This document shows, in pieces, positions 20,175-38,830 of a stretch of 46,122 bases of DNA. Numbering within the stretch: position 1 is the first letter of the stretch; every line of letters starts with the position of its first letter. This DNA is from Lachnospiraceae bacterium (GTDB lineage Bacteria > Bacillota > Clostridia > Lachnospirales > Lachnospiraceae), in assembly GCA_021201095.1 (NCBI GenBank), contig JAJQFO010000209.1, positions 1 through 46,122 on the forward strand, read 5' to 3'. The notes under the pieces were generated by a model. That model was not told the DNA's origin. It made no database searches and worked only from the letters and a program-made list of their open reading frames with translations. The position numbers and the translations under genes are program-made.

Positions 20175-20329
20175 AGAACACCTCTGCTATCGTTTATCCA
20201 TACTCCCTGTGTGAAACATGGCAGACCGTGCCGGGCAAATCGGCAACATAGCAACACACCGGAAGCCTGCTGTGAGCAGCGCTCCGATGCCACATTATTT
20301 TTCGTCTGCCAAAAGGTAAAAATTCAGAA

Positions 20330-20355
20330 TTTCCCGGTTCTCCCCTTCCGGGAAA
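20330..20355 (-). terminator. Hairpin after the flavin reductase gene
   Basis: TTTCCCGG (20330-20337) pairs with CCGGGAAA (20348-20355). On the minus strand ATTCTGAATTTTT follows, a weak T-tract. It overlaps the murA leader, so it might also be a leader hairpin of murA. Confidence 0.4.
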
Positions 20356-20372
20356 CAAGCGAAATTAGTGTC

Positions 20373-20400
20373 AGTATACCACATTTTCATCAATTGTAAA
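20373..20400 (-). promoter_or_regulatory. Promoter of murA
   Basis: On the minus strand TTTACA (20395-20400) and TATACT (20373-20378) are separated by 16 bp. The leader to the ATG is about 190 nt. Confidence 0.55.
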
Positions 20401-20459
20401 CAAAAATTCACAACTTGCCATTTTTTCGTCATAATGAACCAAACATTTGTTTGTGAGCA

Positions 20460-21071: not shown

Positions 21072-21287
21072 GTAATTTCTCCTCTGATATCACTCACGTT
21101 GCGAACTACCCATTGTCTCTAAAGCCAATGGGATTGCGGTCGGCTTATTCAAACGCAGGAAAGCGAGGATACCCTCGCCCCTGCACGTTTTCTCAATTTC
21201 TGATAGCTGACGGCATACCCTCCTGTTTCATTACCGGGCAGGAGGAATGCCAGTCACTGCAAAATGCTTCCCCTGGTTCCTTGTTCC

Positions 21288-23018: not shown

Positions 23019-23045
23019 GATGTTTTCCTCTTTCTTTAAATCTGC

Positions 23046-24362
23046 TCACTCCACTCCGCGCTCAGTCACCCGCGCAAAAATCAGCGGCTTTTTCTGCGGC
23101 GCCTTCGCTCCGGTCTCCACTGCCTCGAGGAACCGCTCTTTTGCTGCCTCCAGCTTTGCCTCATCCGAGGTCAGCAGCGTGGCCAGGGTCTCTCCCTTTT
23201 TCACAGAGTCGCCGGTCTTTTTCGAGAGGATGATGCCCGCAAGCGGATCGATTTCGCTCTCCTTCGTCTCCCGGCCCGCGCCGAGCAGCATCGCAGCGAT
23301 ACCGATTCCGGCGGAGTCCATTTTAGTCACATAACCGCTTTTTTCGGCCTTTACTTCCATCGCAAACGGGGCGCGTCCGAGCTTCTCCGGGTGACGCACG
23401 CACTCCGCGTCTCCTCCCTGCGCCTCGATCATGGCGGCGAGCTTCTCCAGAGCCGCTCCAGATTTCAGAGCATCCTGTGCCAGGCCCCGGCAATAATCCA
23501 GATCCCCTTTGCCCGCCAGATACAGCAGCTGCGCCGCCAGCGCAAGGCACACCTCCGTCAGATCCGCTGGTCCCTGGCCCTGCAGCGTACGGACGGCTTC
23601 TTCGACTTCGAGCGCATTTCCAATCTGGTATCCAAGCGGAATATCCATATTCGTGATCAGCGCGGCGATTCGTTTACCGTTATGTACGCCGATCGCCACC
23701 ATTTTCTCCGCCAGAGTAACTGCGTCCTCCGGTGTTTTCATAAAGGCGCCGCTGCCTGTCTTGACATCCAGAACAATACAGTCACTGCCGGCCGCCAGCT
23801 TTTTGCTCATGATCGACGCGGCGATCAGCGGAATGCTGTCCACCGTCGCGGTCACATCGCGGAGCGCGTAGAGCTTTTTATCCGCAGGCGCCAGGTTTGG
23901 GGACTGCCCGGTCACGGCAATCCCGGTGCGGCGTACCACATCCAGAAACTCCTCGCCTGAAAGCGAGGTGCGTGTCCCGGGGATAGACTCCAGCTTGTCG
24001 ACTGTCCCGCCGGTATGTCCCAAGCCGCGTCCGGACATTTTTGCCACGACACAGCCGCACGCAGCCACCACCGGCGCGACGATCAGGGTCGTCTTGTCTC
24101 CGACTCCGCCGGTGGAATGCTTATCTACCTTCACTCCCGGAATCCCCGACAGATCCAGCTGCTCGCCGGACTTTGCCATCGCGTCCGTCAGAATCGCTGT
24201 CTCCTCATCCGTCATTCCCTGAAAATAAACAGCCATCAGAAACGACGACATCTGGTAGTCCGGAATGTAGCCCTTCGTGTAGCCTGTAATCATCCAGCGG
24301 ATTTCCTCCTCAGAAAGAGCAGCGCCGCCGCGCTTTTTGGTTATGATATCATACATTCTCAT
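23046..24362 (-). CDS. pdp: Pyrimidine-nucleoside phosphorylase
   Basis: A 438-residue enzyme that cleaves thymidine, uridine or deoxyuridine with phosphate to base and (deoxy)ribose-1-phosphate. The start [13 protein letters not shown] and the signature [18 protein letters not shown] are diagnostic of the thymidine/pyrimidine nucleoside phosphorylase family; [14 protein letters not shown] and KTGSGAFM form the phosphate and active-site loops. The ATG at 24360-24362 is preceded by GGGGGG; the longer frame to 24416 lacks family similarity. It belongs to the deoD-deoB-cdd-pdp run; its sugar phosphate product is the substrate of DeoB. Confidence 0.95.
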
Positions 24363-24506
24363 TGAAAAATCCCCCCTTACTTTATTCACGCCTCGTCCGA
24401 AAATACTATCCGGCATTTTCTGGCGGATCTGCTCCGACAGCCTTTCGCAGCCGCCAGACCAGGCACTCGGTCAGACCCTTGTAAAAACTGTCTGCTTTCA
24501 AATATT

Positions 24507-24968
24507 TTATACATTCAGATCCTTCGGTCCGAAATTCAGCGGCAGCAGTTCATTCAGCGTATAGCTCTGATAATCCTGCGGACTGCGCGCCAGAAGAATC
24601 CGGAAAGTCTCCGGATCGCAGAATTCCGCCATCACCTGACGGCAGACACCGCAGGGCGGAGCAAAATTTTCCGTCTTCATCTCCGCCTCATTCGGATTCA
24701 TCCCGGCAGCATCCGCGCCGGAATCTTTTGCGTATCCCCCAACAATTGCGATTTGTTTAAAATGGCGATACCCCTCGGAGACCGCCTTAAAAAAAGCCGT
24801 GCGTTCCGCGCAGATCGTCGGCGTGTAGGTAGCATTTTCAATGTTGCACCCCTGGAAAACCGTGCCGTCCGCTGTCTCCAGCGCGGCACCGACCGAAAAA
24901 TGTGAGTAAGGGGTATAGGCCCGCCGTCTCGCCTGATACGCGAGCTTTATCAATTCCTGATCCTGCAT
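24507..24968 (-). CDS. cdd: Cytidine deaminase
   Basis: A 153-residue homotetrameric-type cytidine deaminase converting (deoxy)cytidine to (deoxy)uridine. Zinc motifs are CAERTAF (Cys, catalytic Glu) and PCGVCRQVMAEF (two Cys). The N-terminus AYTPYSHFSVGAAL is typical. The usual length is about 130; about 15 extra residues sit between the two zinc motifs (KDSGADAAGMNPNEAEMKTEN), a polar loop insertion. The uridine made here is a substrate for the downstream pdp product. Confidence 0.95.
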   Translation of the reverse strand: MQDQELIKLAYQARRRAYTPYSHFSVGAALETADGTVFQGCNIENATYTPTICAERTAFFKAVSEGYRHFKQIAIVGGYAKDSGADAAGMNPNEAEMKTENFAPPCGVCRQVMAEFCDPETFRILLARSPQDYQSYTLNELLPLNFGPKDLNV

Positions 24969-25066
24969 TCTTCCATACCTTCCATTTTATGATTTCAGAA
25001 AAGTAACACCATACCTAAGCTAAAAGTCTTTTGTATTATGAATATAAAACATCATGGGCTCCGTCG

Positions 25067-26365
25067 TTATTTTTTCACAGCACCCCAAAAGCTCTCTCCA
25101 TCAAGGCTTTCCGGTATCCCGAACATCTCCAGCACGGTCGCCGCGATATCCGCAAAGCTGCTCCTGGTACCGATAGAAACGCCTGGGCGCACGCTTTTGC
25201 CGTATAAAAGCATCGGAACATATTCTCTCGAATGATCCGTGCCCGGGAATCCGGGATCGCACCCATGGTCTGCCGTGATCAGCACCACATCGTCGTCCCG
25301 CAGCCTGCTCATCATTTCGCCAAGCTGTCGGTCAAACAAGGTTGCGGCGGCCGCATAGCCGTCAATGTCGTTGCGGTGTCCGTAGAGCATGTCAAAATCG
25401 ACCAGATTGACAAAGCAAAGGCCGGTAAAGTCCTCATCCATCAGGGCGAGGGTTTTGTTCATGCCGTCCTCGTTGTCCTGAATCGGGGTCGTGTGCGCGA
25501 TGCCCTGGCCGGCAAAAATGTCGTTGATCTTGCCGACTCCGTAGGTGTCAAATCCATGCTCGCAGAGGCTGACCAGCATCGTGCGCTTCGGCGGCACCAG
25601 TGAAAAGTCGTGGCGGTTCCTGGTCCTGGTAAAATCTGCCGCGCTTTTTCCCACAAACGGCCGCGCGATCACGCGCCCCACGCCGTGCTTTCCCTGCAGG
25701 ATCGCCCGCGCAATGCGGCAGTCCGCATACAGCTCGTCAAGAGGCACCACTTCCTCATGCGCAGCGATCTGAAAGACGCTGTCAGCCGATGTGTAGACGA
25801 TCAGGTCTCCGCCTGCCATGTGCTGCTCTCCATAGTCACGAATGACATCCGTGCCGGAATATGGCTTGTTGCAGAGGACTCCGCGCCCGGTCTGCTCCCG
25901 AAAAGGCTGCAGCACCTCCTCCGGAAATCCGTCCGGGTACACCGGCATGGGCTCCGGCGACACGACGCCGGCAATCTCCCAGTGTCCGATCGTCGTGTCC
26001 TTCCCCATAGAGCGCTCGCGGAGCCGCCCATAGGCCGCGATCGGTGCGTCCCCAGCCGCCGCGCACTGCGGTGCCAAATGTCCCGTGGGCGGTGCAGAAC
26101 ATCCGACGGACGTTTGTTCCGTGTCAGCGGAACCGGAGTGCGGCACATTTTTCAAATCGCAGCAGTATTCCGCCGCACCCGGACGGCAGGTAACGCCATC
26201 AATATGGAATAGCCCGAACCGTTCCAGATTCGGCGTGTCATAGCGGTCTGATTTTACGATCGTGGCCAGTGTGTTGGCCCCGACATCCCCAAACAGGTCG
26301 GCATCCGGCTCGTATCCGATGCCGAAGCTGTCGAGAACAATGAGAAATACTCGTTTTACAGCCAT
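25067..26365 (-). CDS. deoB: Phosphopentomutase (DeoB)
   Basis: DeoB interconverts (deoxy)ribose-1-phosphate and -5-phosphate, linking nucleoside breakdown to central metabolism. The 432-residue protein starts at ATG 26363-26365 (GGAGG upstream) with VFLIVLDSFGIGYEPDA, the metal-binding Asp of the alkaline phosphatase superfamily; KDTTIGHWEIAG contains the phosphothreonine site; ITADHGCDPGFPGTDHSRE holds the second metal cluster. It is 30-40 residues longer than usual because of a Cys/Ala/Pro-rich insertion (about residues 75-115) before the AYGRL segment. The frame is open to 26449 without family similarity. Confidence 0.95.
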   Translation of the reverse strand: MAVKRVFLIVLDSFGIGYEPDADLFGDVGANTLATIVKSDRYDTPNLERFGLFHIDGVTCRPGAAEYCCDLKNVPHSGSADTEQTSVGCSAPPTGHLAPQCAAAGDAPIAAYGRLRERSMGKDTTIGHWEIAGVVSPEPMPVYPDGFPEEVLQPFREQTGRGVLCNKPYSGTDVIRDYGEQHMAGGDLIVYTSADSVFQIAAHEEVVPLDELYADCRIARAILQGKHGVGRVIARPFVGKSAADFTRTRNRHDFSLVPPKRTMLVSLCEHGFDTYGVGKINDIFAGQGIAHTTPIQDNEDGMNKTLALMDEDFTGLCFVNLVDFDMLYGHRNDIDGYAAAATLFDRQLGEMMSRLRDDDVVLITADHGCDPGFPGTDHSREYVPMLLYGKSVRPGVSIGTRSSFADIAATVLEMFGIPESLDGESFWGAVKK

Positions 26366-26481
26366 ATTCTGATTCCTCCAAATCGAGCAAGGTACATCCC
26401 TGATTCCGCAAACACTGCCTGGTCGGTCATGCTTCGCTCTCACAGACATCGTACACCTGCTCCCATCCTATACCTGCATTT

Positions 26482-27189
26482 TTACGCGATCTCCATTGCG
26501 ACCTTCACCATATCATTAAAGCTGGTCTGCCGTTCTTCGGAGGTCGTCTCCTCGCCGGTCACCATGCTGTCTGAAATCGTGCAGATCGCCAGGGCATTCT
26601 TGCCCGCTCGGGCCGCGTTCATATAAAGGGCCGCCGCTTCCATCTCCACAGCCAGCGCACCCATCTTCTGCCACTTCTCCGTCGTCGGGCGGTCATTGTA
26701 AAATACGTCCGCAGAAACCAGGTTGCCGACCCGGTAATTGATCCCCATTTTTTCCGCCGTGTCCACCGCTTCGCGAAGCAGGGAGTAGGACGCAATCGGC
26801 GCGAAGGTGCCGGGCAGTTCAAACTGAGCGGCAAAATTGGAATCCGTGCAAGCGCCCATGCCGAGCACCAGGTCGCGGATCTTCAGATCCGGCTGCAGCG
26901 CCCCGGCTGTGCCGATGCGGATAATATTTTCTACATTATAAAAATGAAACAGCTCATAGGAATAAATCCCGATCGAGGGCATCCCCATGCCGCTCGCCAT
27001 CACGGAAACCTTTTTCCCCTGGTAAAGACCGGTGTAGCCGTTGACGCCGCGCACGTTGTTGACGAGGACGGCATCCTCCAAAAATGTCTCTGCGATGTGC
27101 TTTGCCCGCAGCGGATCCCCCGGCATCAGTACCGTTCTCGCGAAATCTCCCGGTAAAGCCGCAATATGCGGAGTAGGTGTCTGACTCAT
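26482..27189 (-). CDS. deoD: Purine-nucleoside phosphorylase, DeoD type
   Basis: A 235-residue hexameric-type purine nucleoside phosphorylase releasing purine base and (deoxy)ribose-1-phosphate. LPGDFARTVLMPGDPLRAKHI and ASGMGMPSIGIYSYELF are the family signatures; VEMEAAALY and TISDS near the end form the nucleoside pocket. The ATG at 27187-27189 has AAGGAGG 8 nt upstream, better than the codon five residues earlier. First gene of the salvage run deoD-deoB-cdd-pdp-ppaC-flavin reductase. Confidence 0.95.
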   Translation of the reverse strand: MSQTPTPHIAALPGDFARTVLMPGDPLRAKHIAETFLEDAVLVNNVRGVNGYTGLYQGKKVSVMASGMGMPSIGIYSYELFHFYNVENIIRIGTAGALQPDLKIRDLVLGMGACTDSNFAAQFELPGTFAPIASYSLLREAVDTAEKMGINYRVGNLVSADVFYNDRPTTEKWQKMGALAVEMEAAALYMNAARAGKNALAICTISDSMVTGEETTSEERQTSFNDMVKVAMEIA

Positions 27190-27252
27190 ATGTTTTTCCT
27201 CCTTCATTGTTTTGGTGCATCATGGCATTTTTTACATGAATTTATCTTCTTC

Positions 27253-27282
27253 AGTTTATCACCATATGTGCATATCCGACAA
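27253..27282 (-). promoter_or_regulatory. Putative promoter of the nucleoside-salvage run
   Basis: On the minus strand TTGTCG (27277-27282) and TAAACT (27253-27258) are separated by 18 bp, about 55 nt upstream of the deoD start. A moderate match only. Confidence 0.45.
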
Positions 27283-27694
27283 CTGTTTTTTTGATTTCTT
27301 TTATTTTTATGTCATTTTTACCATTTATTTAACGGTCTTTTTAGCGTTTGTTCATATTTCGTTCACAAACCCCTGTTATAGTAAACTCAGCTTTTGAAAG
27401 ACAGAGTTCTTGAAATCAAAACAAAGTGAAAGAACAGTTCAATTGACATCTTGATAAATTTTTTCATAATAGCCTCCGGTATGCCAGATACCGGGGGCAC
27501 TCCTCATTTATGAGCATATTATCCTCTCCCGTACCATTCCCACCATACCCCAACTCAACTCCCGCAGCAGTCGTTTGGCCAGGCAGCCTGCAGTCCGCCC
27601 GCATGTCTGCACTTCCTCGTCCGCAAAACAGCCCCATCCCCGCCAGTCACGAAGCATTTGCCTCTAACGCAGCCAGCACCTGCCGCTGTGTTCC
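27283..27694. other. Intergenic region without a recognised gene
   Basis: This stretch between the TPR lipoprotein stop and the deoD promoter is AT-rich near deoD. It holds one clear hairpin, CCTCCGGTAT (27473-27482) with ATACCGGGGG (27488-27497), likely the 3' end of the lipoprotein transcript though it lacks a good T-tract. Short ORFs on the plus strand are not convincing. Confidence 0.5.
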
Positions 27695-28765
27695 TTATTC
27701 CCGCGTCTGCAAAAACGCCCACTCCTTCTGCCCGGCTTCGTCAGTCGGGTAACTCTCCACGTAGGCTTCCGCCTTTTCGGCGGCTGTCACAAAGTCCAGC
27801 TTCTTCTCATATGCGACGATCTCATTAAAGTACAGCTCCTGCTTGCCATCCGTTCCTTCAAGGGAAAGACCGAGGCTGATGTAAGAAAGTGCCGTGTCAT
27901 AATCGCCCATCTGGATTGCGCACAATGCCAAACCATTATAGCACTGGGTGCTTTCCCCGAATTCCTCCTGAATCTGCTGATAAATGGCCAGCGCGTGGGT
28001 ATAATCATCCATCGCCAGATAAACCTTGCCGATCAGATACATGGCCGGCTCGTACTTCGACTCCACCGGAGTGATGAGCATCCTCTGCGCTTCCTCGTAG
28101 TTTCCCAGATAATAGTATATTCTCCCCTGATTGTAATAATACTCCGTGTCGTCCCCCTTCAGGCTCTGCGCCGTCTGCAGGTAGGTCACGCCGATCGCAG
28201 AAAGATTCGCATTGGAATAGCTTTCATAAATATTCAGATACAAATCATAGTCCTCAGGCGCCAGTGTTACCGCCGCATCAAAATCCGCGGCTGCCTCATC
28301 GGTGTATCCTTCTTCCAGATAGCTTGCACCGCGCAGGAAATACGCGTCTGCATTGCCATCCTTTGAATCGTCCAGAAGCTCCGTGCAGGTGCTGATCACA
28401 TCCTCAAAATTTTCCAGCTGATACTGTGCCGTGGCCAGATACAGGCGGATATCCTCCGTGTTGGACGGCATACGCTTGTCCGTGTTAGCGAGAGCCTCTT
28501 CAAATGCCTCGGCAGCATTCTCATACTCCCCCAGTGCCATATACGCCAGGCCTAATCCCCGGTACGCCAGAACCTGCTGCTCTTCATCTGCAATTGCTTC
28601 CTCAAAAAGCTCCAGTGCCTCCGAATAGCTGCCCTCATCCAGTGCTTCCAGCCCGGCCACCGTATATTTTCCCGTCGCCCCCTGATTCGCGCAGCCGGAC
28701 GCGCATAAAACAAGCAGCACAAGCAATGTGCCGCCGGCACCCCGAATAAATTTTTTGAATCCCAT
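27695..28765 (-). CDS. TPR-repeat lipoprotein
   Basis: A 356-residue predicted lipoprotein. The N-terminus is a short basic and hydrophobic signal (FKKFIRGAGGTLLVLLVLCA) ending in the lipobox CASGC, with lipidation expected on the Cys near residue 25. The mature part is almost wholly TPR units of about 34 residues (YSEALELFEEAIADEE, LGEYENAAEAFEEALA, MGDYDTALSYISLGLS). It is probably anchored outside the membrane and mediates protein contacts; the specific role is unknown. ATG at 28765 is used with GGGGG 9 nt upstream; a GTG two codons earlier is possible. Confidence 0.85.
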   Translation of the reverse strand: MGFKKFIRGAGGTLLVLLVLCASGCANQGATGKYTVAGLEALDEGSYSEALELFEEAIADEEQQVLAYRGLGLAYMALGEYENAAEAFEEALANTDKRMPSNTEDIRLYLATAQYQLENFEDVISTCTELLDDSKDGNADAYFLRGASYLEEGYTDEAAADFDAAVTLAPEDYDLYLNIYESYSNANLSAIGVTYLQTAQSLKGDDTEYYYNQGRIYYYLGNYEEAQRMLITPVESKYEPAMYLIGKVYLAMDDYTHALAIYQQIQEEFGESTQCYNGLALCAIQMGDYDTALSYISLGLSLEGTDGKQELYFNEIVAYEKKLDFVTAAEKAEAYVESYPTDEAGQKEWAFLQTRE

Positions 28766-28984
28766 GTCCACCGTCCCCCTTTTGCCGGCATTCCTCCATC
28801 GTCCGCAATGGCCTCATCCAATCATTGCAGCGACCTGCGTGATTGAAGGACTGCGGCCGCAATCCCATTCGCTTTAGATAATGGGTCGTTCACTTCCCCC
28901 CATAAATGCATTCGCTTTTCTGCTTCTTCGCGTTCTGCCCTTTCCCATTCTGTCTTTCAACACGAAAAAACGACAGATATTTTG

Positions 28985-29013
28985 ATTATACAAAAACAAA
29001 TTCATTATTTCCA
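28985..29013 (-). promoter_or_regulatory. Promoter of the TPR lipoprotein gene
   Basis: On the minus strand TGGAAA (29008-29013) and a perfect TATAAT (28985-28990) are separated by 17 bp, giving a leader of about 210 nt. Confidence 0.55.
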
Positions 29014-29163
29014 CTGTTTTCCCAAAAATAATTTTTCCGGATTTTACCTGTGGTTACATAGCACACCTGTAAATTGAAAAATACTGTAAATCCGATCAAG
29101 GTGTGACTTGTAACTACCTGTGCGCTACACAGCATACCCGCGCCGCGCCCATCGTGAAGAAAT
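29014..29163. other. Intergenic region with a shared 16-mer
   Basis: Apart from AGGTGTGACTTGTAAC at 29099-29114, which recurs exactly at 43652-43667, nothing is recognised here. No clear terminator for the large fusion gene was found. Confidence 0.4.
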
Positions 29164-32100
29164 TCAATCGGCCGGATGCCATCCTTCAAGCAGGCCGGTC
29201 CCTGCCCCCTTTGGGGAGGTGCCGAGGTAGTTCTCCCGCAGATCCTTCTGCATCTGCTCCAGCTCATCGTGCAGTCCCCGGGCGGAAAGGCGGGCCGCCC
29301 CTGCCCCGAAAATAATAATCTGCTCAAGTGCATCGGACGTGGCCACAGTCACATGATACCGGCGCCGGATCTGCCGCGCGGTTTTTTCTATATATTGATC
29401 CGCTGTCTCCGCTTCTTTCGTGTAGACGACATGAATGTTGTGATAGCGAAGTACCTCCGTAGTATGTCCTGCGACCCGGTAAGCGTCAAAAACCACGATC
29501 AGATCATTGTTTTTATATCCCTGGTAATTGCACATCAGATCCAGCAGTCGGGTGCGGGCACTCTCCAGGCTGATCTTTGCAAGCTCCTTCAGCTCCTCCC
29601 AGGCAAAAATGATGTTATATCCGTCCACCAGAAGACATTCCTCCAGCGGCTCTGCATTTTTTCCTTTCCGCTTTGCTGTATAACCGTCCCCCGTCGCCCC
29701 GGCGTCTGCCGACGGCTGCTCCGATGACGCGCGAACCGGCTGAGGCGCCTCATATCCGGCCCAGCGTGAGCCCAGCTCTGCACCGGCGTGTCTGCCGTCC
29801 GCCGGGCGCCTCCCTTCCCACTTTGCCGCACCGTAGGTCCGCTCAAATATGGCGCGGAGCTCATCGTCAGCAGCCGGCGCGGCAGGACCAGCGTTTTTCG
29901 CTGACGGTACCGGCACTCCCCGCCGCGGTCCGCCTGTTCCGTTTCCCGCAGAAGCTTCACTGCGCATCAGCTGCCTCTCATTTTGCGCAGAAATCCCGTC
30001 TCGTACACCAGGCCCGCTGTTTCCCGCAGAGCCCCCGTCTTGTGCACCAGATCCTCTGTTGCCAGCAGAGCCCCCGTCTTGTGCACCAGGTATGCTGTTT
30101 CCAGCAGAGTCCCCGTCTCGTGCACCAGGTGTGCTGCTGCCCGCAGGACTCCCGTCATGCAGCCTGCCGTCCGCATATCTGTCCGTATCTGCTATATGAA
30201 CATAGTCCGGCACATCCTCCCAGCTCACGACAAAGCCCGCTCCATGCGCGCAAAAAACGGAGCCGCAGGGATTATCGGGATCCAGAAGCGGATCGTAGGC
30301 ACGCGCCTCGATCACTTCTTCCGCATTATGACATTCTTCGTATCCCTTCAGTGTGCAGAAAAGACGTCCTCTGCCCCTGGTATAGGAAAGCAGCTCCCGC
30401 TGATAGCTGCGCATCGTCACGACCGGCGCGGTGCCTGTAATTTCCATCATGCCGGTCTGCCCCTGGTCATCCAGAAGCACCGGTGTCCCGGCCGTTCCAT
30501 ACATACTCTGAATATCCGAAAGGGCACGTCCCACAGATTCCATCGGCACCTCCATCCGGAAGCGGTAAACCGGCTCGAGCAGGATAGATTTGGCACGGCA
30601 AAGCCCCTGGCGCACAGCGCGGCAGGTGGCCTGACGGAAATCACCGCCTTCCGTATGCTTCTGGTGCGCCCTGCCCGCGACCAGAGTGATTTTCATATCC
30701 GTAATTGCCGAACCGGTGAGCACTCCCGGATACTGTTTTTCCTCCAGATGGGTCAGCACCAGCCGCTGCCAGTTCAGATCCAGCTCGTCCGTACCGCATG
30801 CGCTCTCAAACTGCAGTCCGCTGCCGCGCTCGCCAGGTTCCATCAGCAAATGTACTTCAGCATAATGGCGAAGCGGCTCAAAGTGCCCCATACCAACGAC
30901 CGGTTCGGCGATCGTTTCACGATAAACAATGCTCCCCTCTCCAAATTTCACCGCCAGCCCAAAACGCTCCCGGATCAGATCCTGCAGAATTTCCGTCTGA
31001 ACTTCTCCCATAAGCTGTGCGTGAATCTCGCCGGCGCAGTCTGCTCCCTGCGCAGATTTATCCACCGCTGGAACCCACGAGATATGGAGCTGCGGTTCTT
31101 CCTCCTCCAGCTGCTTCATCTGGCGAAACGCCCGCTGCACATCCGTCCCCTCCGGAGCACCCGCCAAATGCGCAGCATTTCTATTAATGCGGGTGCGTTC
31201 TGCCCTCGCCGGGTGGCATCCTCGCCCTTCGGGCGGGATATCCGCCGAAGCGCAGCGAGGGGGCGTTTCCACCAGCTCGATCCGGTAAGAAAGCACCGGC
31301 TCCAGGATCGGCATCTCCGCCTCCGGCTCCGCTCCAAGGCCTTCCCCCACACGAGTGTGCTCCGGCCCTGTGACCGCACAGATCGTCCCTGCCGCAGCCT
31401 CCTGGGCTGTTTCAAAGGAGCCGCCGGAAGGAATCCGGATCTGATTGACCTTTTCCCCCGCCAGAAGGTCCTTCACACGCAGCATCCCGCCGGTGATTTT
31501 CATATGAGTCAGTCGATTTCCCTGTGCGTCGCGCGAGATTTTGTAAACTCTCGCCCCGAACGTATCGGGATATTCCTTTTCCAGGCTGTAGCTGTAAATC
31601 CCGTCCAGAAGCTCCTCCACGCCCTCCAGCTTCAGTGCCGAACCAAAAAAGCAGGGAAACACATGCCGGGCAGCAATCGCGCGGCGGATCTCATCTGTCC
31701 CGATCGTTTCACCGGAAGCATAAATTTCCAGGAGCCGGTCATCGCACATCGCCATCTCCTCCTGGAATTTTTCCTCCCGCTGCCGACGAGCTTCCTGCGC
31801 CTGAGTTTCCTGCGTCTGAATGCTCTGCTCCGGCCAATTTTCACCGCGGCATCCCCCCTGCCCCGTCTGATCCTTTCTGTGTACTCCATCCCGCTCAGAG
31901 CGCTCCTGCTCATGCCGGCCATCCCGCTGCAGGCGATGCTTCCCGGATACGGCATCCATGGAGCCTCCGGCGCACAGGTTTACAGCGTCTCTTCCGGAAA
32001 AATCCACGCACCGCTCATCCAGCTTCGCGGCAAGATGAGCCATCAATTCCTCACGGTCCGCCCCGGGCAGATCCATCTTATTGATAAACAAAAATACCGG

Positions 32101-32610
32101 TATCTCATAACGCGCGAGCAGCCGCCAGAGTGTGTCCACATGGCTCTGCACGCCGTCCGGCGCACTGATCACAAGAATCGCGTAATCCAGCACCTGCAGC
32201 GTCCGTTCCATTTCTGCAGAAAAGTCTACATGGCCCGGCGTATCCAGTAGAGTAACAGAAACCGATTCCTCCTGAGAGCCTGCATCCGCCAGCCTTCCAT
32301 TTCCAGCTTCCGCCACCGGCCCATTTTCCGCATTTGCCGTTCTTCCATCCAGAACGATCTGCGCCTGTTTCGAAAAAATCGTGATCCCGCGTGCGCGTTC
32401 CAGTGCAAAATGATCGAAGTAAGCGTCCTGATGATCCACTCTCCCCAGAGCGCGAATCCGCCCGGTCAGATATAGAATCGCCTCCGCCAGCGTTGTTTTG
32501 CCCGCATCTACATGAGCCAGCAGACCAGTACAACAGGTTCGATTTTTATGGCTGCCTTTGCCCGCTGCCCCAGGCGAATGTGCGTGCTGCTGTTCCCTGT
32601 CCGTGCCCAT
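29164..32610 (-). CDS. TetM/EF-G-like ribosome GTPase fused to Rae1/YacP-type NYN nuclease
   Basis: A 1148-residue protein with two linked activities. Residues about 25-850 match the ribosomal-protection/EF-G translation GTPases: P-loop AHVDAGKTT (32-40), ERARGITIF switch I, DTPGHVDF, NKMD and GSALK, then domains II-V. Residues about 991-1135 are an NYN (PIN-like) domain of the Rae1/YacP type: LLVDGYNIIFAW (Asp996), IVVFDAYRV, KEAETADQYIEK (Asp1071), VATSDALEQ (Asp1093) and IFGAGAARLSARGL. B. subtilis Rae1 cleaves mRNA in the ribosomal A site; TetM-like factors bind the same site. The join is a disordered linker with 13-residue repeats, and further inserts break the GTPase, one encoded by a palindromic repeat (31201-31265). 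RBS GGAGGAGG precedes ATG 32610. Tetracycline resistance is not established. Confidence 0.87.
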   Translation of the reverse strand: MGTDREQQHAHSPGAAGKGSHKNRTCCTGLLAHVDAGKTTLAEAILYLTGRIRALGRVDHQDAYFDHFALERARGITIFSKQAQIVLDGRTANAENGPVAEAGNGRLADAGSQEESVSVTLLDTPGHVDFSAEMERTLQVLDYAILVISAPDGVQSHVDTLWRLLARYEIPVFLFINKMDLPGADREELMAHLAAKLDERCVDFSGRDAVNLCAGGSMDAVSGKHRLQRDGRHEQERSERDGVHRKDQTGQGGCRGENWPEQSIQTQETQAQEARRQREEKFQEEMAMCDDRLLEIYASGETIGTDEIRRAIAARHVFPCFFGSALKLEGVEELLDGIYSYSLEKEYPDTFGARVYKISRDAQGNRLTHMKITGGMLRVKDLLAGEKVNQIRIPSGGSFETAQEAAAGTICAVTGPEHTRVGEGLGAEPEAEMPILEPVLSYRIELVETPPRCASADIPPEGRGCHPARAERTRINRNAAHLAGAPEGTDVQRAFRQMKQLEEEEPQLHISWVPAVDKSAQGADCAGEIHAQLMGEVQTEILQDLIRERFGLAVKFGEGSIVYRETIAEPVVGMGHFEPLRHYAEVHLLMEPGERGSGLQFESACGTDELDLNWQRLVLTHLEEKQYPGVLTGSAITDMKITLVAGRAHQKHTEGGDFRQATCRAVRQGLCRAKSILLEPVYRFRMEVPMESVGRALSDIQSMYGTAGTPVLLDDQGQTGMMEITGTAPVVTMRSYQRELLSYTRGRGRLFCTLKGYEECHNAEEVIEARAYDPLLDPDNPCGSVFCAHGAGFVVSWEDVPDYVHIADTDRYADGRLHDGSPAGSSTPGARDGDSAGNSIPGAQDGGSAGNRGSGAQDGGSAGNSGPGVRDGISAQNERQLMRSEASAGNGTGGPRRGVPVPSAKNAGPAAPAADDELRAIFERTYGAAKWEGRRPADGRHAGAELGSRWAGYEAPQPVRASSEQPSADAGATGDGYTAKRKGKNAEPLEECLLVDGYNIIFAWEELKELAKISLESARTRLLDLMCNYQGYKNNDLIVVFDAYRVAGHTTEVLRYHNIHVVYTKEAETADQYIEKTARQIRRRYHVTVATSDALEQIIIFGAGAARLSARGLHDELEQMQKDLRENYLGTSPKGAGTGLLEGWHPAD
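29990..30160 (-). repeat. 39-nt in-frame tandem repeats in the fusion linker
   Basis: The word GCAGAG recurs at 30026 and 30065 and the pattern continues with a period of 39 nt over about four units, encoding 13-residue GAQDGGSAGNSGP and variants between the GTPase and the NYN domain. Confidence 0.85.
31201..31265. repeat. Family B palindromic repeat inside the fusion coding sequence
   Basis: GCCCTCGCCGGGTGGCATCC is shared with the intergenic repeats at 12515-12535, followed by a CTCGCCC-TTCG-GGGCGGG-like hairpin (CGCCC/GGGCG). It encodes part of a Pro/Arg-rich stretch of about 40 residues placed between VETPP and the HISWVP segment of the GTPase, where relatives have a short loop. Confidence 0.75.
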
Positions 32611-32650
32611 AAAAATGCCTCCTCCGGTAAAAAATAAACTTCGTTTATTC

Positions 32651-32741
32651 TATCATATGTCCGTACTCGCGCAGCGAGTATGGACGCAGGCCGCGCCATT
32701 GTGCGAAGCACAATTCTGCATGCGCGGCTTTCATTGTATCA
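32651..32741 (-). repeat. Structured leader element (family C), copy 1
   Basis: Read on the minus strand, it runs from TACAATGAAAGCCGCGC through TTGTGCTTCGCACAA and GGCCTGCGTCCATACTCGC to GGACATATGATA. It is homologous over about 90 nt to 43814-43899 in the same orientation relative to the downstream gene. Stems include AATTGTGC/GCACAATT-like, GCCGCGC/GCGCGGC and TCCATACTCGC/GCGAGTACGGA. It lies 40 nt upstream of the fusion gene, probably in its leader; TCGACT (17 bp before TACAAT) is a possible -35 box. Confidence 0.7.
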
Positions 32742-32792
32742 CAGGAGAAGGCCATAGTCGAGAGGCTCTTCTGAAATTAAGTATTCTTGCTT

Positions 32793-33452
32793 TCACACTT
32801 TTTTCGGTAATTTCGGGTAAATATGTAAGCTGATTTCGCCTTCAGGAGTTCGATATATTGTGGCTTTTTCCAGAACCATCTTCCACAGCTTGTTCTTTTC
32901 AAGAATCGTTAGCTGCTGATAACTATCCAGCAATTTCTGAGCAGCGGGAATAATTTCTTTCTCCGCATTCTGTCCGTCCTCCTTAGATTCTCTTTTTCTT
33001 AATAAATCAGCCTCCGAAGCTCGTAAATCCCGCAATTCCCTGCTCAACACATCATTTCGTTTTGTAAACATCTCAACCGTATATATGCCTTTTTCCAAAT
33101 ATTCACAGGCACTGTCCTGTTGTGCCTGCAGCTGCTCAATCTGCTCTCGAACAATTGATAAGGCAGTGTCAATCGGATTTGTCTTTTTAGGCTTGTCTGT
33201 TTCTACCTCGATCGTATATTCTTTCAGCCATTCTCTCATCGCCTCAAGAATAGCGTCCTCAGCCAAATCACACTTTATTGCCCGGCAGTTACATCCTCTT
33301 GTCGGACAACGATACCAGGGAGCTGTCTTTTGTTTTTTTGATGGGACATTGCGCTTCATGACAGCACCACATTTTTCACAAAATAAAACCGACGCAAATG
33401 GATTTCTTATTTCCCGATTAGAATTAACCGAAGTATGGCCTCGCTCTTTCTG
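32793..33452 (-). pseudogene. C-terminal remnant of a large serine recombinase
   Basis: An open frame with the zinc-ribbon and coiled-coil part of a large serine recombinase. NSNREIRNPFASVLFCEKCG, then YRCPTRGCNCRAIKC, supply the two Cys pairs; a long helical region (EQIEQLQAQQDSACEYLEKG, then DVLSRELRDLRASEADLLRK) follows. The N-terminal catalytic domain is absent: the frame begins right after a TGA at 33453-33455, at the point where the ADP-ribosylglycohydrolase similarity stops. No start codon or other mobile-element gene is present. It is therefore a scar of an integrated and largely deleted element. Confidence 0.8.
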
Positions 33453-33607
33453 TCACCACCGTTCATGATTGCGTCTGCTACTGCACAGGTCATAACAGTA
33501 TCATCTGTGAAAAAGCAATCATCCCGAAATAGCGGGAAATCCTTTGTTTTAATATTGTTCCATTCGTAGACCGATCCAACGATGTCACCTATAATTGCAC
33601 CAAGCAT
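33407..33607 (-). pseudogene. Truncated ADP-ribosylglycohydrolase (N-terminal part)
   Basis: A 66-codon ORF whose first 50 residues are the N-terminus of an ADP-ribosylglycohydrolase (DraG-like): MLGAIIGDIVGSVYEWNN, then FFTDDTVMTCAVADA with the metal-binding TDDT motif. After MNGGD (near 33456) similarity ends and the frame runs into the serine-recombinase remnant on another frame, ending at 33407. The rest of the enzyme (about 200 residues) is missing, so it cannot be functional. It starts 27 bp after the stop of the gene at 33635. Confidence 0.8.
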
Positions 33608-33634
33608 TCTGTTCTACCTCCGTTTCCTCATCTA

Positions 33635-34516
33635 TCAAATGAGTCCCGTTTCTTTCTGGAGTCTCTCATATTCCTTCCTGGCATCAACAGCTTTCTTTTC
33701 TGCTACATCCAAGTCTGCCTTTGTTTTAATCTCAAGCACTATTTTCTCCATGAGGTCTCCGTCCGGAACAGTGAGGAAACCCTTTTCAATACCAGCGGGA
33801 TATTGAAAAAGCTTGTCTCCGGACGGGAAAGAAATGTGCAGTTTGCCATCCTGATAGGAGATGACATTTCCAGTTCCGAATTTCTTATGGACAACCTGTG
33901 TTCCTGTCATATCGACACAAAATACTTCACGTTGTTTTTCTTCCAAATCACGCTGAGCAGATACCAGATTTGCCTGTGCCTCCTCAAGTGCAGAACGCAG
34001 CCGAGCTCTTTTGATACGCTCTTTCGTGGATGTAGTAGCTGCTTTTGCCTGAAGGTAAAAGCCGTATGTATCTGCGCAGTAAATTATGTCATAAACAAGC
34101 ATGTGCAATTTATCATCGTAGCCCTGAGCTTCTCTGGCAAAGCGCTCAGCATGGAGCTTCATAATAGTCTCATTGTTTTGAACCGCTTCCAGTAGCTCAT
34201 CGCACATACGGTAGTATTTCTCAAGGGAAAAATCCGCGCCGGACCCAAAGTCATCGCCAAATTCTATGCAGTTGGCCCAGTTTGTGGCTTCTGTCGATTT
34301 AAAGATATAATTCTCCCATGGTCTCCACAGATTGAGATAGTAAATCACATCATTTATTTTCTGTGGGTACTTCCATGAGCTGCTTTCATAGTTCTCAATC
34401 CGGCTGTTAATCTTATCCATGAATGAGAGAATGCGTCCCTGGCGGGCCACCAAATCGCCGCCGTCATCGGAAAAGAGCTCACGAAAGCACTGGCGCACAA
34501 ATTCTACTTGCTCCAC
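33635..34516 (-). CDS. Hypothetical helical protein with a KFGxGxV beta-module
   Basis: Not recognised as a named family. About 293 residues from GTG 34514-34516, chosen because AAGGAGG lies 11 nt upstream; the ORF reads on to 34666 only through the dispersed element at 34539-34616. The N-terminal two thirds are helical (FVRQCFRELFSDDGGDLVAR, then NDVIYYLNLWRPWENYIFKS) with a coiled coil (ALEEAQANLVSAQRDLEEKQ). The C-terminal part, VVHKKFGTGNVISYQDGKLH, resembles the small Tudor-like module at the end of UvrD/PcrA helicases, which binds RNA polymerase there. Function unknown. It precedes the truncated glycohydrolase, which may once have been its operon partner. Confidence 0.65.
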   Translation of the reverse strand: MEQVEFVRQCFRELFSDDGGDLVARQGRILSFMDKINSRIENYESSSWKYPQKINDVIYYLNLWRPWENYIFKSTEATNWANCIEFGDDFGSGADFSLEKYYRMCDELLEAVQNNETIMKLHAERFAREAQGYDDKLHMLVYDIIYCADTYGFYLQAKAATTSTKERIKRARLRSALEEAQANLVSAQRDLEEKQREVFCVDMTGTQVVHKKFGTGNVISYQDGKLHISFPSGDKLFQYPAGIEKGFLTVPDGDLMEKIVLEIKTKADLDVAEKKAVDARKEYERLQKETGLI

Positions 34517-34538
34517 CTGTTGATTCACCTCCTTCCCA

Positions 34539-34616
34539 AATCGGATAGAGAACGCGCTTCTCTCTATCCGCCGCGCTGGGCGGAACCGCAAAGCCTCCTT
34601 GTCCGCCCGTGCGCAT
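34539..34616. repeat. Structured dispersed element (family A)
   Basis: Outer stem GGATAGAGA/TCTCTATCC, second stem GGGCGGA/TCCGCCC, inner AACCGCAAAGCC. It abuts the terminator at 34617-34654 and lies directly before the RBS of the hypothetical gene at 33635. Confidence 0.8.
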
Positions 34617-34654
34617 AAAAATAAGCCCGCATGAGCAAATCTCTCATGCGAGCT
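34617..34654 (-). terminator. Intrinsic terminator of the CmpB-type permease gene
   Basis: GCATGAG/CTCATGC (within 34624-34654) forms the stem; on the minus strand TTATTTTTATGC follows. Confidence 0.8.
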
Positions 34655-34741
34655 ATGTATCATCATTTTTCATCTGTTTTACTGTAAGCGTTTAGAACCT
34701 TTTTTTCAAAAATATATTTCGACGCAATGGGCAATCACGGG

Positions 34742-36124
34742 CTACTGCTGCCAGATCGGTACCCCGCTCCCCGGCTCCTGCATATTCGGCCAGATGCTTT
34801 CCACGAACTCATCCGAGTAATTGGCGTCAATGAATTCTTCCAGCACGTTCTGCGCCTCCATGCCCTCCAGACGGTTCACATATCTCGAAAGCACCGCGCC
34901 CGACAGCAAAAGATCTGCAGCCATCACCACAATGACACTCCAGGTAGCGATTACGCCAATCGCAGGAGGGATCTTTTCAATCAGACCGCTGACCAGTGGA
35001 TACAGGCTCTTTACCCACAATACAGACAAGATGCCCCCAAAGATGCAAAACAAAAGATTTGTTCTGCCGCCGATATTGAACATCATATCGCTGTAATCCC
35101 AGAAAGTTCTGCCGAACACAAACTCGGAAATGACGCTGCAGGTGTATTCATAAACGCCCCACAAGACAGCGCCGGAAAAGAACACAAAACGATCTTCCCG
35201 GTTCACCAGCTTTTGTGTGACAACCGAAATAATCACCGCGCCAAAGCCCCACACAATAGAAAAAGTGCCATAAATCACGCTGGTACGACTCATCCACACG
35301 CCCGTTGTCGCCCACACAAACACTGTCTCAAACAGGTCACCGGCAAACGCCCAGATAATAAAAATCCAGAGCAGCTTATTCAGACAAAGCCCTTTCGCGA
35401 AAACGTATTTGCCGGAGCGGATTTCATTCCGTTCACCCATGCCAGGGTAAGCGCGCTCCAAACGTCTCCAGACTGCGTTGCAAAGTCGGTTGCCCATTTT
35501 TTCCTCGGACACGACCTGCGTCACATCCATGTGCTTCTTACCCTTCCCGGTCTTTTGACTGCCCTTTTCCCGCCTTTTTTCGAATGTCTCCCTGCGCTGT
35601 CTCATTTCTCCTGCATAGACAACCGCGATCATATCCAGCAGCAGGAATCCCAAAAGCATCAACCCCACCACCTGTAAAAACAAAACCGGCAGCAGCCTGA
35701 CAAAAGTAAAAATAAAGGGATGCAGCAGCTTAATCAGCACCAGGATCACAGCAGATTTCGCGACGGCCACAGTAGTACCCTTGAGTTCCCCGCCAAACAG
35801 AGTATCCCTCTCATACTGCGAAAGTCTGTGGTGCAGGATACGGTGAGAGATGTCGCTCGTCACAAAATCCACCACCGACACAACTACCAGCGTGATCACG
35901 TACTGCGTGAAAGTATTGAGAAAGCTTAACTCCTCTCCGACCGTCGGCAGCACCACCGCCAGAATATCCGCCATAACTCCATACTTCGGGCAGAGCGGCA
36001 GGTTAAAAAAACCTCGGTTACAGAATTTACGTCTGGTTACGGAGGTAATCAAAACCTCACCCACCCATCCCATGAAGCTGTAAATCATAAAATAGATTAA
36101 AAGTTCAGTGTATGTGTATTCCAT
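34742..36124 (-). CDS. Putative ABC transporter permease, duplicated CmpB-type membrane protein
   Basis: A 460-residue membrane protein with two copies of the domain annotated as ABC_trans_CmpB. Copy 1 starts YFMIYSFMGWVGEVLITS and has FFNLPLCPKYGVMA; copy 2 has IIWAFAGDLFETVFVW, YGTFSIVWGFGAV and FGRTFWDYSDMMFNIGGRTN. A Lys/Arg-rich cytoplasmic linker (about 180-245) joins them. About ten to twelve transmembrane segments are likely. Most relatives in Clostridia have one domain; the transport role assigned to the family name is unproven and no ATPase gene is adjacent. The gene ends at a clear terminator. Confidence 0.8.
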   Translation of the reverse strand: MEYTYTELLIYFMIYSFMGWVGEVLITSVTRRKFCNRGFFNLPLCPKYGVMADILAVVLPTVGEELSFLNTFTQYVITLVVVSVVDFVTSDISHRILHHRLSQYERDTLFGGELKGTTVAVAKSAVILVLIKLLHPFIFTFVRLLPVLFLQVVGLMLLGFLLLDMIAVVYAGEMRQRRETFEKRREKGSQKTGKGKKHMDVTQVVSEEKMGNRLCNAVWRRLERAYPGMGERNEIRSGKYVFAKGLCLNKLLWIFIIWAFAGDLFETVFVWATTGVWMSRTSVIYGTFSIVWGFGAVIISVVTQKLVNREDRFVFFSGAVLWGVYEYTCSVISEFVFGRTFWDYSDMMFNIGGRTNLLFCIFGGILSVLWVKSLYPLVSGLIEKIPPAIGVIATWSVIVVMAADLLLSGAVLSRYVNRLEGMEAQNVLEEFIDANYSDEFVESIWPNMQEPGSGVPIWQQ

Positions 36125-36154
36125 GATGTGTTCCCCTTTGCCTTTTTCAACAAG

Positions 36155-36352
36155 CTACGTCATATATTTTAATCCTGCCAGCTCAACATTATTTGCAAAG
36201 CTTCCAATTTCATCCTCATGCTCTTCAAAAAATGAAAACGAATATCGGCCACCATTTTCAGCATACTCTTGTTTTGTCAATTTGTTTTGATTTAGTTTGG
36301 CAGCTACCCTTCTAATATCAATTATGATATCATCCTGATTTATTTCTGTCAT
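36155..36352 (-). CDS. Small protein with a homing-endonuclease-associated repeat
   Basis: A 65-residue protein. IIIDIRRVAAKLNQNKLTKQ and EYAENGGRYS followed by GSFANNVELAGLK match the pattern of the HNH-associated helical repeat (usually xxDIxRVAxxLGxxxLTxxEY...FGSWxxALxxAGL). Normally several repeats precede or follow a nuclease domain, so a single repeat ending at once suggests a fragment of a larger gene. AAAGGGA lies upstream of the ATG. The replacement of the usual SWNKAL by SFANNV indicates divergence. Confidence 0.5.
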   Translation of the reverse strand: MTEINQDDIIIDIRRVAAKLNQNKLTKQEYAENGGRYSFSFFEEHEDEIGSFANNVELAGLKYMT

Positions 36353-36511
36353 CTGGTATCCCTTTCAAATTCCGTAACATCGGTTTGTTTCTTCCCGCTG
36401 ATGTCTCCATTATATCAGCCCCACTCACTGCAAACAAGAAGAATATCCGCATTTTCGCTATGTAAGCAGCCCGCAGGCTGCCCAGGCTATGCCTGTCCAC
36501 GAGGAATCATA

Positions 36512-36634
36512 TCAGACTGGCTCATCATCTGCATCGTCTTCGTCAATCTCATAATCCTCGTCGTCGTACTCGTCTTCCGGTTCTTCCCCGGAATAGCCGT
36601 ATCCACCGAACGGCTCCAGTTCCTCGCTCCTAAT
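36512..36634 (-). pseudogene. Acidic C-terminal gene fragment
   Basis: On the minus strand an open frame of about 38 codons reads SEELEPFGGYGYSGEEPEDE and continues with Asp/Glu-rich residues to EPV and a TGA at 36512-36514. There is no start codon and stops lie just upstream. The composition is that of an acidic protein tail, so this is likely the 3' end of a lost gene. The remaining 36635-36838 is AT-rich with nothing recognised. Confidence 0.45.
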
Positions 36635-36838
36635 CTATGTGGGCTAAATGAAAACAAAAAACTGAGAATATTATCGCAGGTGTAATGTGTTGTCAACAAT
36701 CAATTTAATCATTTACTGTTTTCAACGCCAGGCACTCAATCTCTCCTTGCTAACTAAAAGCATTTGTGGTAAGCTTTCTACAATTAAAAACGTTTGTTTT
36801 CCACCATTTTATAACGAATAAATGAAGGGGGCGGCAGT

Positions 36839-38557
36839 GTGAATAGGAAGATACTTCCAATAGGAGTTGATAATTTTGCGGATTTTCGCCGGATGAATTA
36901 TTACTATGTCGATAAGACCGATTTTATAAAAGAACTGCTGACGAACCCGGGCAAGGTAAATCTTTTTACACGCCCGCGCCGGTTTGGGAAAAGCCTAAAT
37001 ATGAGTATGCTCAAGTGTTTTCTTGAAATAGGCGCAGATAAAGAATTGTTTGATAACCTGGCTATCTCCAAGGAAACACAGCTTTGCGAAACATACATGG
37101 GACAGTTCCCAGTGATTTCCATCAGTCTGAAAACCGCCCATGGGGACAGCTACGAATTTGCGAGGAATGAACTCTGTACCATTATTGCAAAAGAAGCGCT
37201 GAGATTTCGTTTCCTTCTTGACAGCAATAAACTTTATGAGGAAGATAAAAGTCTATACCGCCAGCTTATTCATGTTGATACGTCTTTAAAGGGCACTTTT
37301 GCCATGTCTGAATCGACCATCACAAGCAGCCTGAACACGCTGTCCATGCTTCTGGAAAAGCATTATGGACGAAAAGTAATCATTCTGATTGATGAATACG
37401 ATGTGCCGCTGGCAAAAGCAGCTTCGGGCAGATACTATGATAAAATGATTATCCTGATCCGTAATATGCTGGACGCCGCATTAAAAACAAACGAACATCT
37501 GTATTTTGCAGTGATGACCGGATGCCTGAGGGTTTCAAAAGAAAGTATTTTTACCGGTTTAAATAATCCGAAAATATATTCGCTTCTGGATGCGGAATGT
37601 GATGAGCGTTTCGGATTTACTGACACGGAGGTTCGTCAAATTCTGGACTACTATCAGCTATCCGAATACTACCATATCACAAAAGAATGGTATGACGGAT
37701 ACCGGATTTCCAATGCATATGTTTATAACCCATGGGACGTCATCAATTGGTGCAACCAATTACTGAAAAGTCCGGACAAAAGGCCAAAAAGCTATTGGAA
37801 AAACTCCAGCAGCAATGAAGAAGTCAAAAAATTTCTCTGTCGGATGGGCAATGGTGTGACGAAAGCTCAGATTGAACGGCTGATTTCCGGAGAGACTGTC
37901 CAGAAGACAATCGAGGAGCAGCTGACCTATAATACCATGTATGACAATGTTGAAAATATGTGGAGCCTGCTGTTTGCGACTGGTTACCTGACTCCGGGCG
38001 AGATGCCTGCCGGCAATCTGGTCCGCCTGAAAATTCCGAATAATGAAGTCCGTGACATTTTCAGCGATTTTATCCTGGAGCTGTTTGAAGAAAAAGTGGC
38101 GGAGGATGGAACTTTGGTGACAGAATTCTGCGCAGCTTTGAAAAATGGCGATACGTCTGATGTCGAGCGTGTGTTTATGAAAGCTATGGGAAAAACCATC
38201 AGCATCAGAGATACAGCTGTAAGAAAAGAATTCAAGGAAAACTTTTATCATGGTCTGATCCTTGGTATCATGCTCTTTAAAAGTGACTGGGGTGTTACCT
38301 CAAACAGAGAGTCAGGAGATGGTTACTATGATCTCCAGATTGAGATTGAGGAGGAAGAAATCGGCATTATCATCGAGGTAAAATATGCAGAGGGCGGGGA
38401 GCTTGATGCGGCATGCGCAGATGCCCTTGACCAGATCAATAAGAACAATTACACTGCCGAACTGATAGAAGATGACATGCATAAAATCCTCAAATATGGA
38501 ATTGCCTGCTATAAAAAACAGTGCAAGGTTGTTTTAGAGCGCGAATCAACCATCTGA
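36839..38557 (+). CDS. AAA-ATPase-like / PD-(D/E)XK nuclease superfamily protein
   Basis: A 572-residue protein of the family pairing a predicted AAA-ATPase (Pfam AAA-ATPase_like) with a C-terminal PD-(D/E)XK domain (DUF1703 type). LPIGVDNFADFRRMNYYYVD and Walker A RPRRFGKSLNMSML open the protein; Walker B is VIILIDEYDVPLAKA (about 180). The nuclease-like core near the C-terminus has YYDLQIEIEEEEIGIIIEVK. The GTG start has AAGGGGG 7 nt upstream. Such genes are multicopy in many anaerobes and behave like a proliferating family; biological role unknown. The DNA is more AT-rich than neighbouring genes, suggesting recent acquisition. Confidence 0.9.
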   Translation: MNRKILPIGVDNFADFRRMNYYYVDKTDFIKELLTNPGKVNLFTRPRRFGKSLNMSMLKCFLEIGADKELFDNLAISKETQLCETYMGQFPVISISLKTAHGDSYEFARNELCTIIAKEALRFRFLLDSNKLYEEDKSLYRQLIHVDTSLKGTFAMSESTITSSLNTLSMLLEKHYGRKVIILIDEYDVPLAKAASGRYYDKMIILIRNMLDAALKTNEHLYFAVMTGCLRVSKESIFTGLNNPKIYSLLDAECDERFGFTDTEVRQILDYYQLSEYYHITKEWYDGYRISNAYVYNPWDVINWCNQLLKSPDKRPKSYWKNSSSNEEVKKFLCRMGNGVTKAQIERLISGETVQKTIEEQLTYNTMYDNVENMWSLLFATGYLTPGEMPAGNLVRLKIPNNEVRDIFSDFILELFEEKVAEDGTLVTEFCAALKNGDTSDVERVFMKAMGKTISIRDTAVRKEFKENFYHGLILGIMLFKSDWGVTSNRESGDGYYDLQIEIEEEEIGIIIEVKYAEGGELDAACADALDQINKNNYTAELIEDDMHKILKYGIACYKKQCKVVLERESTI

Positions 38558-38830
38558 CCTTTTGTAGAAGCCAGCCGCTCCGGGGGGTCTTCTCAAAACA
38601 TTTTGACGATTTTTATGAAAAACATCTGTTATTTTTACATGGATTATGCTATACTGACAGGACGAACCGCCGTTCTTCCTTATCTGACTATCTTTTATTC
38701 ACACAGCTTGCATCAAAGGTTGCATCATGGCGGATATTCTGACTGATTTTTTGCAGCAATTCAGAGCAGTGTCGAAATATTCAGGCATATGCCGTTCTGA
38801 ATCGTTGTGTTTTTTCGGAGGATAACTTTC

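Follow-up and report, generated by a model that had tools for sequence, protein, structure and literature searches.

A translation-factor GTPase fused to a Rae1-type nuclease domain in Lachnospiraceae and other clostridial families

The window analyzed here, a stretch of 46,122 nucleotides from a Lachnospiraceae bacterium (contig JAJQFO010000209.1 of assembly GCA_021201095.1), carries on its minus strand a single open reading frame (ORF) of 1148 amino acids (P0001; ATG at 32610, stop at 29164), in which an EF-G-like translation GTPase is joined through a long linker to a C-terminal NYN nuclease domain of the Rae1/YacP type. An earlier note on this DNA, made from the sequence alone, had described the gene as such a fusion and proposed a ribosome-rescue, defense or antibiotic-response enzyme. 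Here, the architecture of the fusion, the affiliation of its GTPase, its distribution and its relation to stand-alone rae1 are described, and the possible functions are weighed.

Domain architecture and conservation of the fused protein

Four Pfam models (GTP_EFTU, EFG_IV, EFG_C, and NYN_YacP) match the window protein over their cut-offs, among them all three for which the earlier note had suggested a domain search; the EF-G_D2 match falls below the Pfam cut-off, and domain III is without a match. The G1, G3, and G4 motifs and the EF-G domain order are present, marking the N-terminal part as a member of the EF-G-like factors. The NYN_YacP profile scores 168.3 bits against a gathering score of 24.6 (1.8e-49), and the NYN half matches the solved YacP structure 5mq8 at 5.4e-28. 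Residues D996, N999, D1042, D1071, and D1093 are kept in 58/58 fused and 21/21 stand-alone rows of the alignment; the four aspartates, which we take to be the catalytic acidic residues of Rae1/YacP NYN nucleases, are the same as in Rae1/YacP of Bacillus subtilis. Unlike the latter, a stand-alone protein of ~170 amino acids, the NYN of the window protein is the C-terminal domain of a GTPase, for which ribosome-dependent mRNA cleavage is the predicted activity.

The same architecture was read in 58 fused sequences. Because it recurs in this way, the GTPase-NYN fusion is real, far beyond chance, and no assembly artifact. Thus, on each of the three points that the earlier note had named as able to overturn its view, namely the fit of the C-terminal region to NYN_YacP models, the retention of the catalytic aspartates in homologs, and the integrity of the gene, the result agrees with a genuine fusion. 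Prediction of the full structure, also suggested in that note, gave an AlphaFold2 model (mean pLDDT 75.6; 585 residues at ≥90) in which the GTPase and NYN parts are predicted with confidence and most of the linker is disordered; the model aligns with ribosome-bound EF-G across residues 3-772. When the whole model was compared with the PDB, an NYN chain was absent among the matches listed, as expected where one domain fills the list, so that the identity of the NYN domain rests on the Pfam and 5mq8 matches.

Across 41 aligned fused proteins, D123-H127, N177, K178, and D180 are present in 41/41, as are the P-loop residues except A36 (A in 34, S in 7). Simple motif searches over the 58 fused sequences, which overlook some rows, recovered the P-loop in 57, DTPGH in 58, NK[ML]D in 56, loops I and III of domain IV in 56 each, and FC.HG, of the post-domain-V extension, in 43. 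In a comparison of the window protein with a relative from its genus, sequence identity amounts to 69.6% for the GTPase and 73% for the NYN domain, with synonymous sites near saturation, and to 33% for the linker; this one pair suggests purifying selection on the GTPase and NYN halves and not on the linker. The linker varies from 65 to 184 amino acids across fused proteins. Within its otherwise disordered course, a short helix with the motif E-[LI]-x-x-I-x-x-x-T is conserved (E917 in 40/41, I921 in 39/41, and T925 in 40/41; a looser pattern in 50 of the 58) and may serve as a docking element. Insertions at residues 89-115, 208-276, and 447-485 and in the linker (alignment of the 41), in part a 39-base tandem repeat, give the window protein its unusual length.

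Table 1. Features of the fusion gene in window coordinates (residue numbers are those of P0001)
Feature	Position	Strand	Basis
Whole gene, 1148 aa (P0001)	29164..32610	-	ORF reading
Ribosome-binding site, good, GGAGGAGG	32618..32625	-	spotted by eye
GTP_EFTU domain, residues 28-341; P-loop AHVDAGKTT, DTPGH, NKMD	31588..32529	-	Pfam and alignment
EFG_IV domain, residues 560-674	30589..30933	-	Pfam
Domain IV loop I region, residues 573-587, GHFEPLRHYAEVH	30850..30894	-	alignment
Domain IV loop III, residues 646-659, GRAHQKHTEGGDFR; aligned Tet(O) stretch SPVSTPADFR	30634..30675	-	alignment
EFG_C (domain V), residues 677-762	30325..30582	-	Pfam
Post-domain-V extension, residues 763-805, SVFCxHGAG...	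30196..30324	-	alignment
Linker, residues 806-989, pLDDT mostly <50	29644..30195	-	predicted structure
Tandem repeats, 39-base, within linker	29986..30156	-	repeat in DNA
Linker short helix, residues 914-926	29833..29871	-	alignment and predicted structure
NYN_YacP (Rae1-type) nuclease domain with D996, N999, D1042, D1071, D1093	29167..29643	-	Pfam and alignment

Affiliation of the GTPase half

In the GTPase tree, fused and unfused GTPases form one clade (support 100) beside the Tet clade (support 95), and the window protein is placed outside the EF-G rows. The subfamily shares the EF-G-like domain order with its sister clade, which includes Tet(M) and Tet(O), and is distinguished from it by the tip of domain IV: loop I (GHFEPLRHYAEV) differs from that of both Tet(O) and EF-G, as does loop III, which reads HxKHTxGGDFR in place of SPVSTPADFR in Tet(O). 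All rows of the tip-loop alignment (43 fused, 21 unfused) show the pattern HT.GGDFR without variation; it is missing from two of the wider 58 fused rows (L186 and L199). Also setting the subfamily apart is the extra piece that follows domain V, SVFCxHGAGFxVxW, which is conserved, common to fused and unfused members, and absent from the Tet and EF-G rows compared. The unfused GTPases thus have the same tip loop and extension as the fused ones; unlike them, they are without the NYN domain, Rae1 being separate or absent.

Among NCBIfam models, the best whole-protein match of the window protein is a Tet model at 349.9 bits against a cut-off of 775; six relatives score 369.7-451, whereas a Tet(O) control passes at 848.5. 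The EF-G model TIGR00484 likewise falls short of its cut-off (241.8 bits vs 659.4). Since the tip loops differ, the Tet cut-offs that Tet(O) passes are failed, and the clade stands beside that of Tet, the GTPase is by sequence no ribosomal-protection protein of the Tet(M) type; it belongs to a separate subfamily, sister to Tet, whose domain-IV tip is distinct. The label "TetM/EF-G-like" of the earlier note therefore holds for an EF-G-like factor and not for the Tet(M) type. Two other EF-G-like genes are present in the window's genome, and the same-genus genome G152 encodes, besides the fusion, a distinct protein of the Tet clade.

Distribution of the fusion and the place of stand-alone rae1

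To chart the distribution, 250 genomes of the window's family (family sample) and 391 genomes of its class (class sample) were searched. In the family sample, NYN_YacP was found in 220/250 genomes and the GTPase subfamily, called by an alignment-based search at E ≤1e-140, in 212/250; all 30 NYN-negative genomes were without the GTPase, and 8 genomes had NYN only. A single NYN match was present in 215 of the 220 NYN-positive genomes. Frames of the 150 NYN matches listed comprised 132 of at least 700 codons, 3 of 300-699, and 15 of <300, and 148 of the 150 GTPase matches listed lay in frames of at least 800 codons; unfused GTPases score lower and are expected outside those 150. That related fusions might be common in Lachnospiraceae, as the earlier note had surmised, is borne out by these counts. 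Where NYN stood alone, the GTPase was present in 11 of the 14 family genomes tested, on another contig in 10, and at E 1e-60 it was found in none of 15 NYN-negative family genomes tested. The class sample had NYN in 249/391 genomes, the GTPase in 164, both in 156, neither in 134, and the GTPase only in 8 (for G378, one of these, the match lies at a contig edge). The 41 genomes in which fusions were read span 17 families.

Unfused members occur in Ligilactobacillus salivarius, Bifidobacterium, Collinsella, Neobacillus, Intestinibacter, and Clostridium-type genomes. A scan of named genomes listed at least 80 loci, most of them ordinary EF-G; of seven genomes with an unfused match among the loci listed, five have NYN (one weak, Collinsella, 91 bits); with Paenibacillus L201, which is without the tip motifs and may not belong, set aside, the count is 4/6. 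Partial second NYN matches in G383, G448, and G488 (21 bits, below the cut-off) were also set aside. Co-occurrence of the two domains gave Fisher p values of 9e-32 (family sample) and 5e-7 (stand-alone vs NYN-negative genomes), which were not relied on as proof of a functional link, because fused genes co-occur trivially, the genomes are related, and genomes with neither may have lost one fused gene. The fusion genes L125 and L128, from Agathobacter rectalis and Monoglobus pectinilyticus, sit on what are filed as large plasmids and carry two different product names.

The classical gene order is rlmB-rae1-sigH. Stand-alone NYN adjoins an rlmB-like gene in classical genomes and in 8 of 13 Lachnospirales-type loci (L106, L108, L109, L110, L111, L113, L114, and L123), followed in several by a sigH-like gene; the identity of rlmB was confirmed by NCBIfam only for L106, L108, and the classical L116. 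Of the remaining loci, L105, L107, and L115 have NYN elsewhere, L112 gave no call, and L124 has a sigH-like neighbor and a different upstream gene. Unlike Bacillus subtilis rae1, the fusion gene lies away from this operon, neither rlmB nor sigH being among the window neighbors scanned around it. Of 13 fusion genomes, nine have a sigH-like gene after rlmB with no NYN between them, and 12, the window's own genome included, have no NYN over the cut-off other than that of the fusion (the exception is G573). Given this sole NYN in 12/13 and the rlmB-sigH order without rae1 in 9/13, the fusion has probably replaced stand-alone rae1.

A single origin of the fusion is compatible with the trees, in which it is not rejected (p-AU 0.432 for NYN and 0.381 for the GTPase, 54/73 rows). 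Gene fission as the source of stand-alone NYN was considered, since stand-alone rows nest among fused ones, and was rejected for the 8 of 13 Lachnospirales-type loci where NYN adjoins the rlmB-like gene; those loci look like the pre-fusion state. G202 has NYN at the old place, and its unfused GTPase branches next to the fusions. We propose that rae1, or a copy of it, became joined to the end of a GTPase gene that already existed, and that rae1 then disappeared from its own operon.

Possible function and genomic surroundings

The architecture is not new in itself. In one sentence, Atkinson 2015 (PMC4342817) notes that in ten Clostridiales species Tet proteins have gained an NYN domain resembling YacP, and suggests that they could confer resistance by way of an RNase. 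These proteins have the same architecture and very probably belong to the same family; in that passage, they are filed under Tet, from ten species, with resistance as the guessed function, whereas the GTPase described here belongs to a sister subfamily, found in most of the 250-genome sample and probably standing in for rae1. As far as the literature was searched, this breadth, the standing-in for rae1, and the separate GTPase subfamily with its own tip are new. Full-text searches found no functional study of the fusion, in keeping with the earlier note, which knew of no functional description.

The fusion is most likely a GTP-driven factor bringing Rae1 to ribosomal A sites. EF-G-like factors insert domain IV into the A site. 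Rae1, in turn, is described in the relevant passages of PMC6613710 and PMC10100781 as a translation-dependent endoribonuclease of the A site. The interpretation preferred here, although its chance is judged slightly short of even, is that the only Rae1-type endonuclease of the genome is part of a translation-factor GTPase, which couples it through GTP to translation-dependent turnover or quality control of mRNA, a function also proposed for Rae1 of Bacillus subtilis. A more specific version, a GTP-gated A-site nuclease that would vacate the decoding site through its own GTPase cycle and so pass it to the tethered Rae1, which cuts the message, is offered tentatively, with the balance leaning against it. 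In the preferred interpretation, the GTPase would bind ribosomes whose A site is empty or blocked, and domain IV, with its unusual His-rich tip, would enter the A site; GTP hydrolysis would release the GTPase, and the tethered NYN would take the vacated A site and cut the mRNA, starting message decay and ribosome rescue. Alternatively, the linker may allow NYN to act on a neighboring ribosome. We infer the order of these steps, their trigger (an empty, stalled, or drug-bound A site), and the need for GTP. In the GTP-gated version, a single protein would carry out mRNA decay coupled to translation, and it would have displaced stand-alone Rae1 across much of the window's family as well as in other families of Clostridia. 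This long-kept natural fusion ties Rae1 to a translation GTPase expected in the same site, and it makes the route of Rae1 to the A site and its choice of ribosomes testable with one protein.

Several observations weigh against this interpretation. The A site probably has no room for domain IV and Rae1 together, so that the two would have to act in turn on one ribosome, and the window's NYN is without the C-terminal stretch of many relatives. NYN occurs without the GTPase in 93 of the 249 NYN-positive class genomes. Conversely, frame length marks the GTPase as unfused in 18 class genomes, of which 13 have NYN and 5 do not, and NYN_YacP was looked for and not found in two Bifidobacterium genomes with unfused GTPase (L187 and L190), which argues that the GTPase has a role of its own. 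As to replacement and origin, G573 keeps rae1 beside a separate fusion, sigH was not found within the 1.5 kb searched beside rlmB in the window's own genome, G152, and G162, and the unconstrained NYN tree needs three changes for the fused state, with 0% of bootstrap trees having one. Finally, loop III equals that of Tet(O) in length, and according to PMC4750697 Tet(M) can stay active when residues of its loop III are changed, leaving room for tetracycline protection.

That last point favors an antibiotic-resistance function, in which the GTPase would free the A site of tetracycline or another drug and NYN would contribute an RNase step, as the cited passage of PMC4342817 suggests for clostridial Tet proteins with a YacP domain. 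Consistent with this, the best NCBIfam match is a Tet model, the Tet clade is the nearest kin outside the subfamily, and a public record labels the Agathobacter rectalis fusion a tetracycline-resistance protein. However, the scores of the window protein and six relatives lie far below that of the Tet(O) control, loop III has the subfamily's own sequence, the gene occurs in most of the family sample, where an acquired resistance gene would be patchy, and the same-genus G152 has a separate Tet-clade protein; resistance is thus considered unlikely, if worth keeping in view. A practical consequence is that surveys may score a gene common in gut Clostridia as a tetracycline-resistance gene, given that one record is so named and the Tet cut-off is failed. 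The two halves might also be tethered without coupling, joined for co-expression or to keep Rae1 near ribosomes, with each working as it does alone. Such a tether would suit a long, disordered, poorly conserved linker, the presence of rae1 at its old locus with the GTPase on another contig in 10 of the 14 stand-alone-NYN genomes tested, and the state of G042, where a GTPase of 711 amino acids and an NYN of 190 are separate frames with a 23-base overlap (L174 5513-8198, minus strand). Against it stand the maintenance of the fusion across the 17 families and the conserved helix motif in the linker, and we regard the uncoupled tether as a minority possibility.

Very improbable, by comparison, is a phage-defense factor that shuts down translation once triggered. 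Ribosome- and RNA-targeting nucleases are a common defense theme, and a recombinase-like fragment lies directly upstream of the fusion gene. PADLOC, however, matched 0 families up to E 1 (a result that says nothing on undescribed systems), the most widely shared neighbor occurs in only 6/41 loci, and the gene is present in most family-sample genomes rather than patchy; the defense role put forward in the earlier note is accordingly dropped, and the same neighbor count led us to discard a conserved operon. Most of the fusion is also present in two records titled "Bacteriophage sp.", one of them an unverified record from human feces with the gene at L129 5397-8024. Phage carriage was considered on this basis and rejected, as nine ORFs of that record showed no phage hallmark (Pfam, 1e-10).

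Among the surroundings of the gene, the upstream fragment (32793-33359, minus strand) resembles the C-terminal part of a serine recombinase, with a zinc-ribbon match below the Pfam cut-off. No RNA control element was matched by Rfam in window positions 20000-40000. A likely nucleoside-salvage run (23046-27207, minus strand) includes a pyrimidine nucleoside phosphorylase and a metalloenzyme-superfamily protein, and presumably also cytidine deaminase, phosphopentomutase, and purine nucleoside phosphorylase. On the plus strand are a predicted AAA-ATPase with a PD-(D/E)XK nuclease domain (36839-38557; PF09820 and PF08011) and a membrane sensor with dCache and GGDEF domains (38807-40312).

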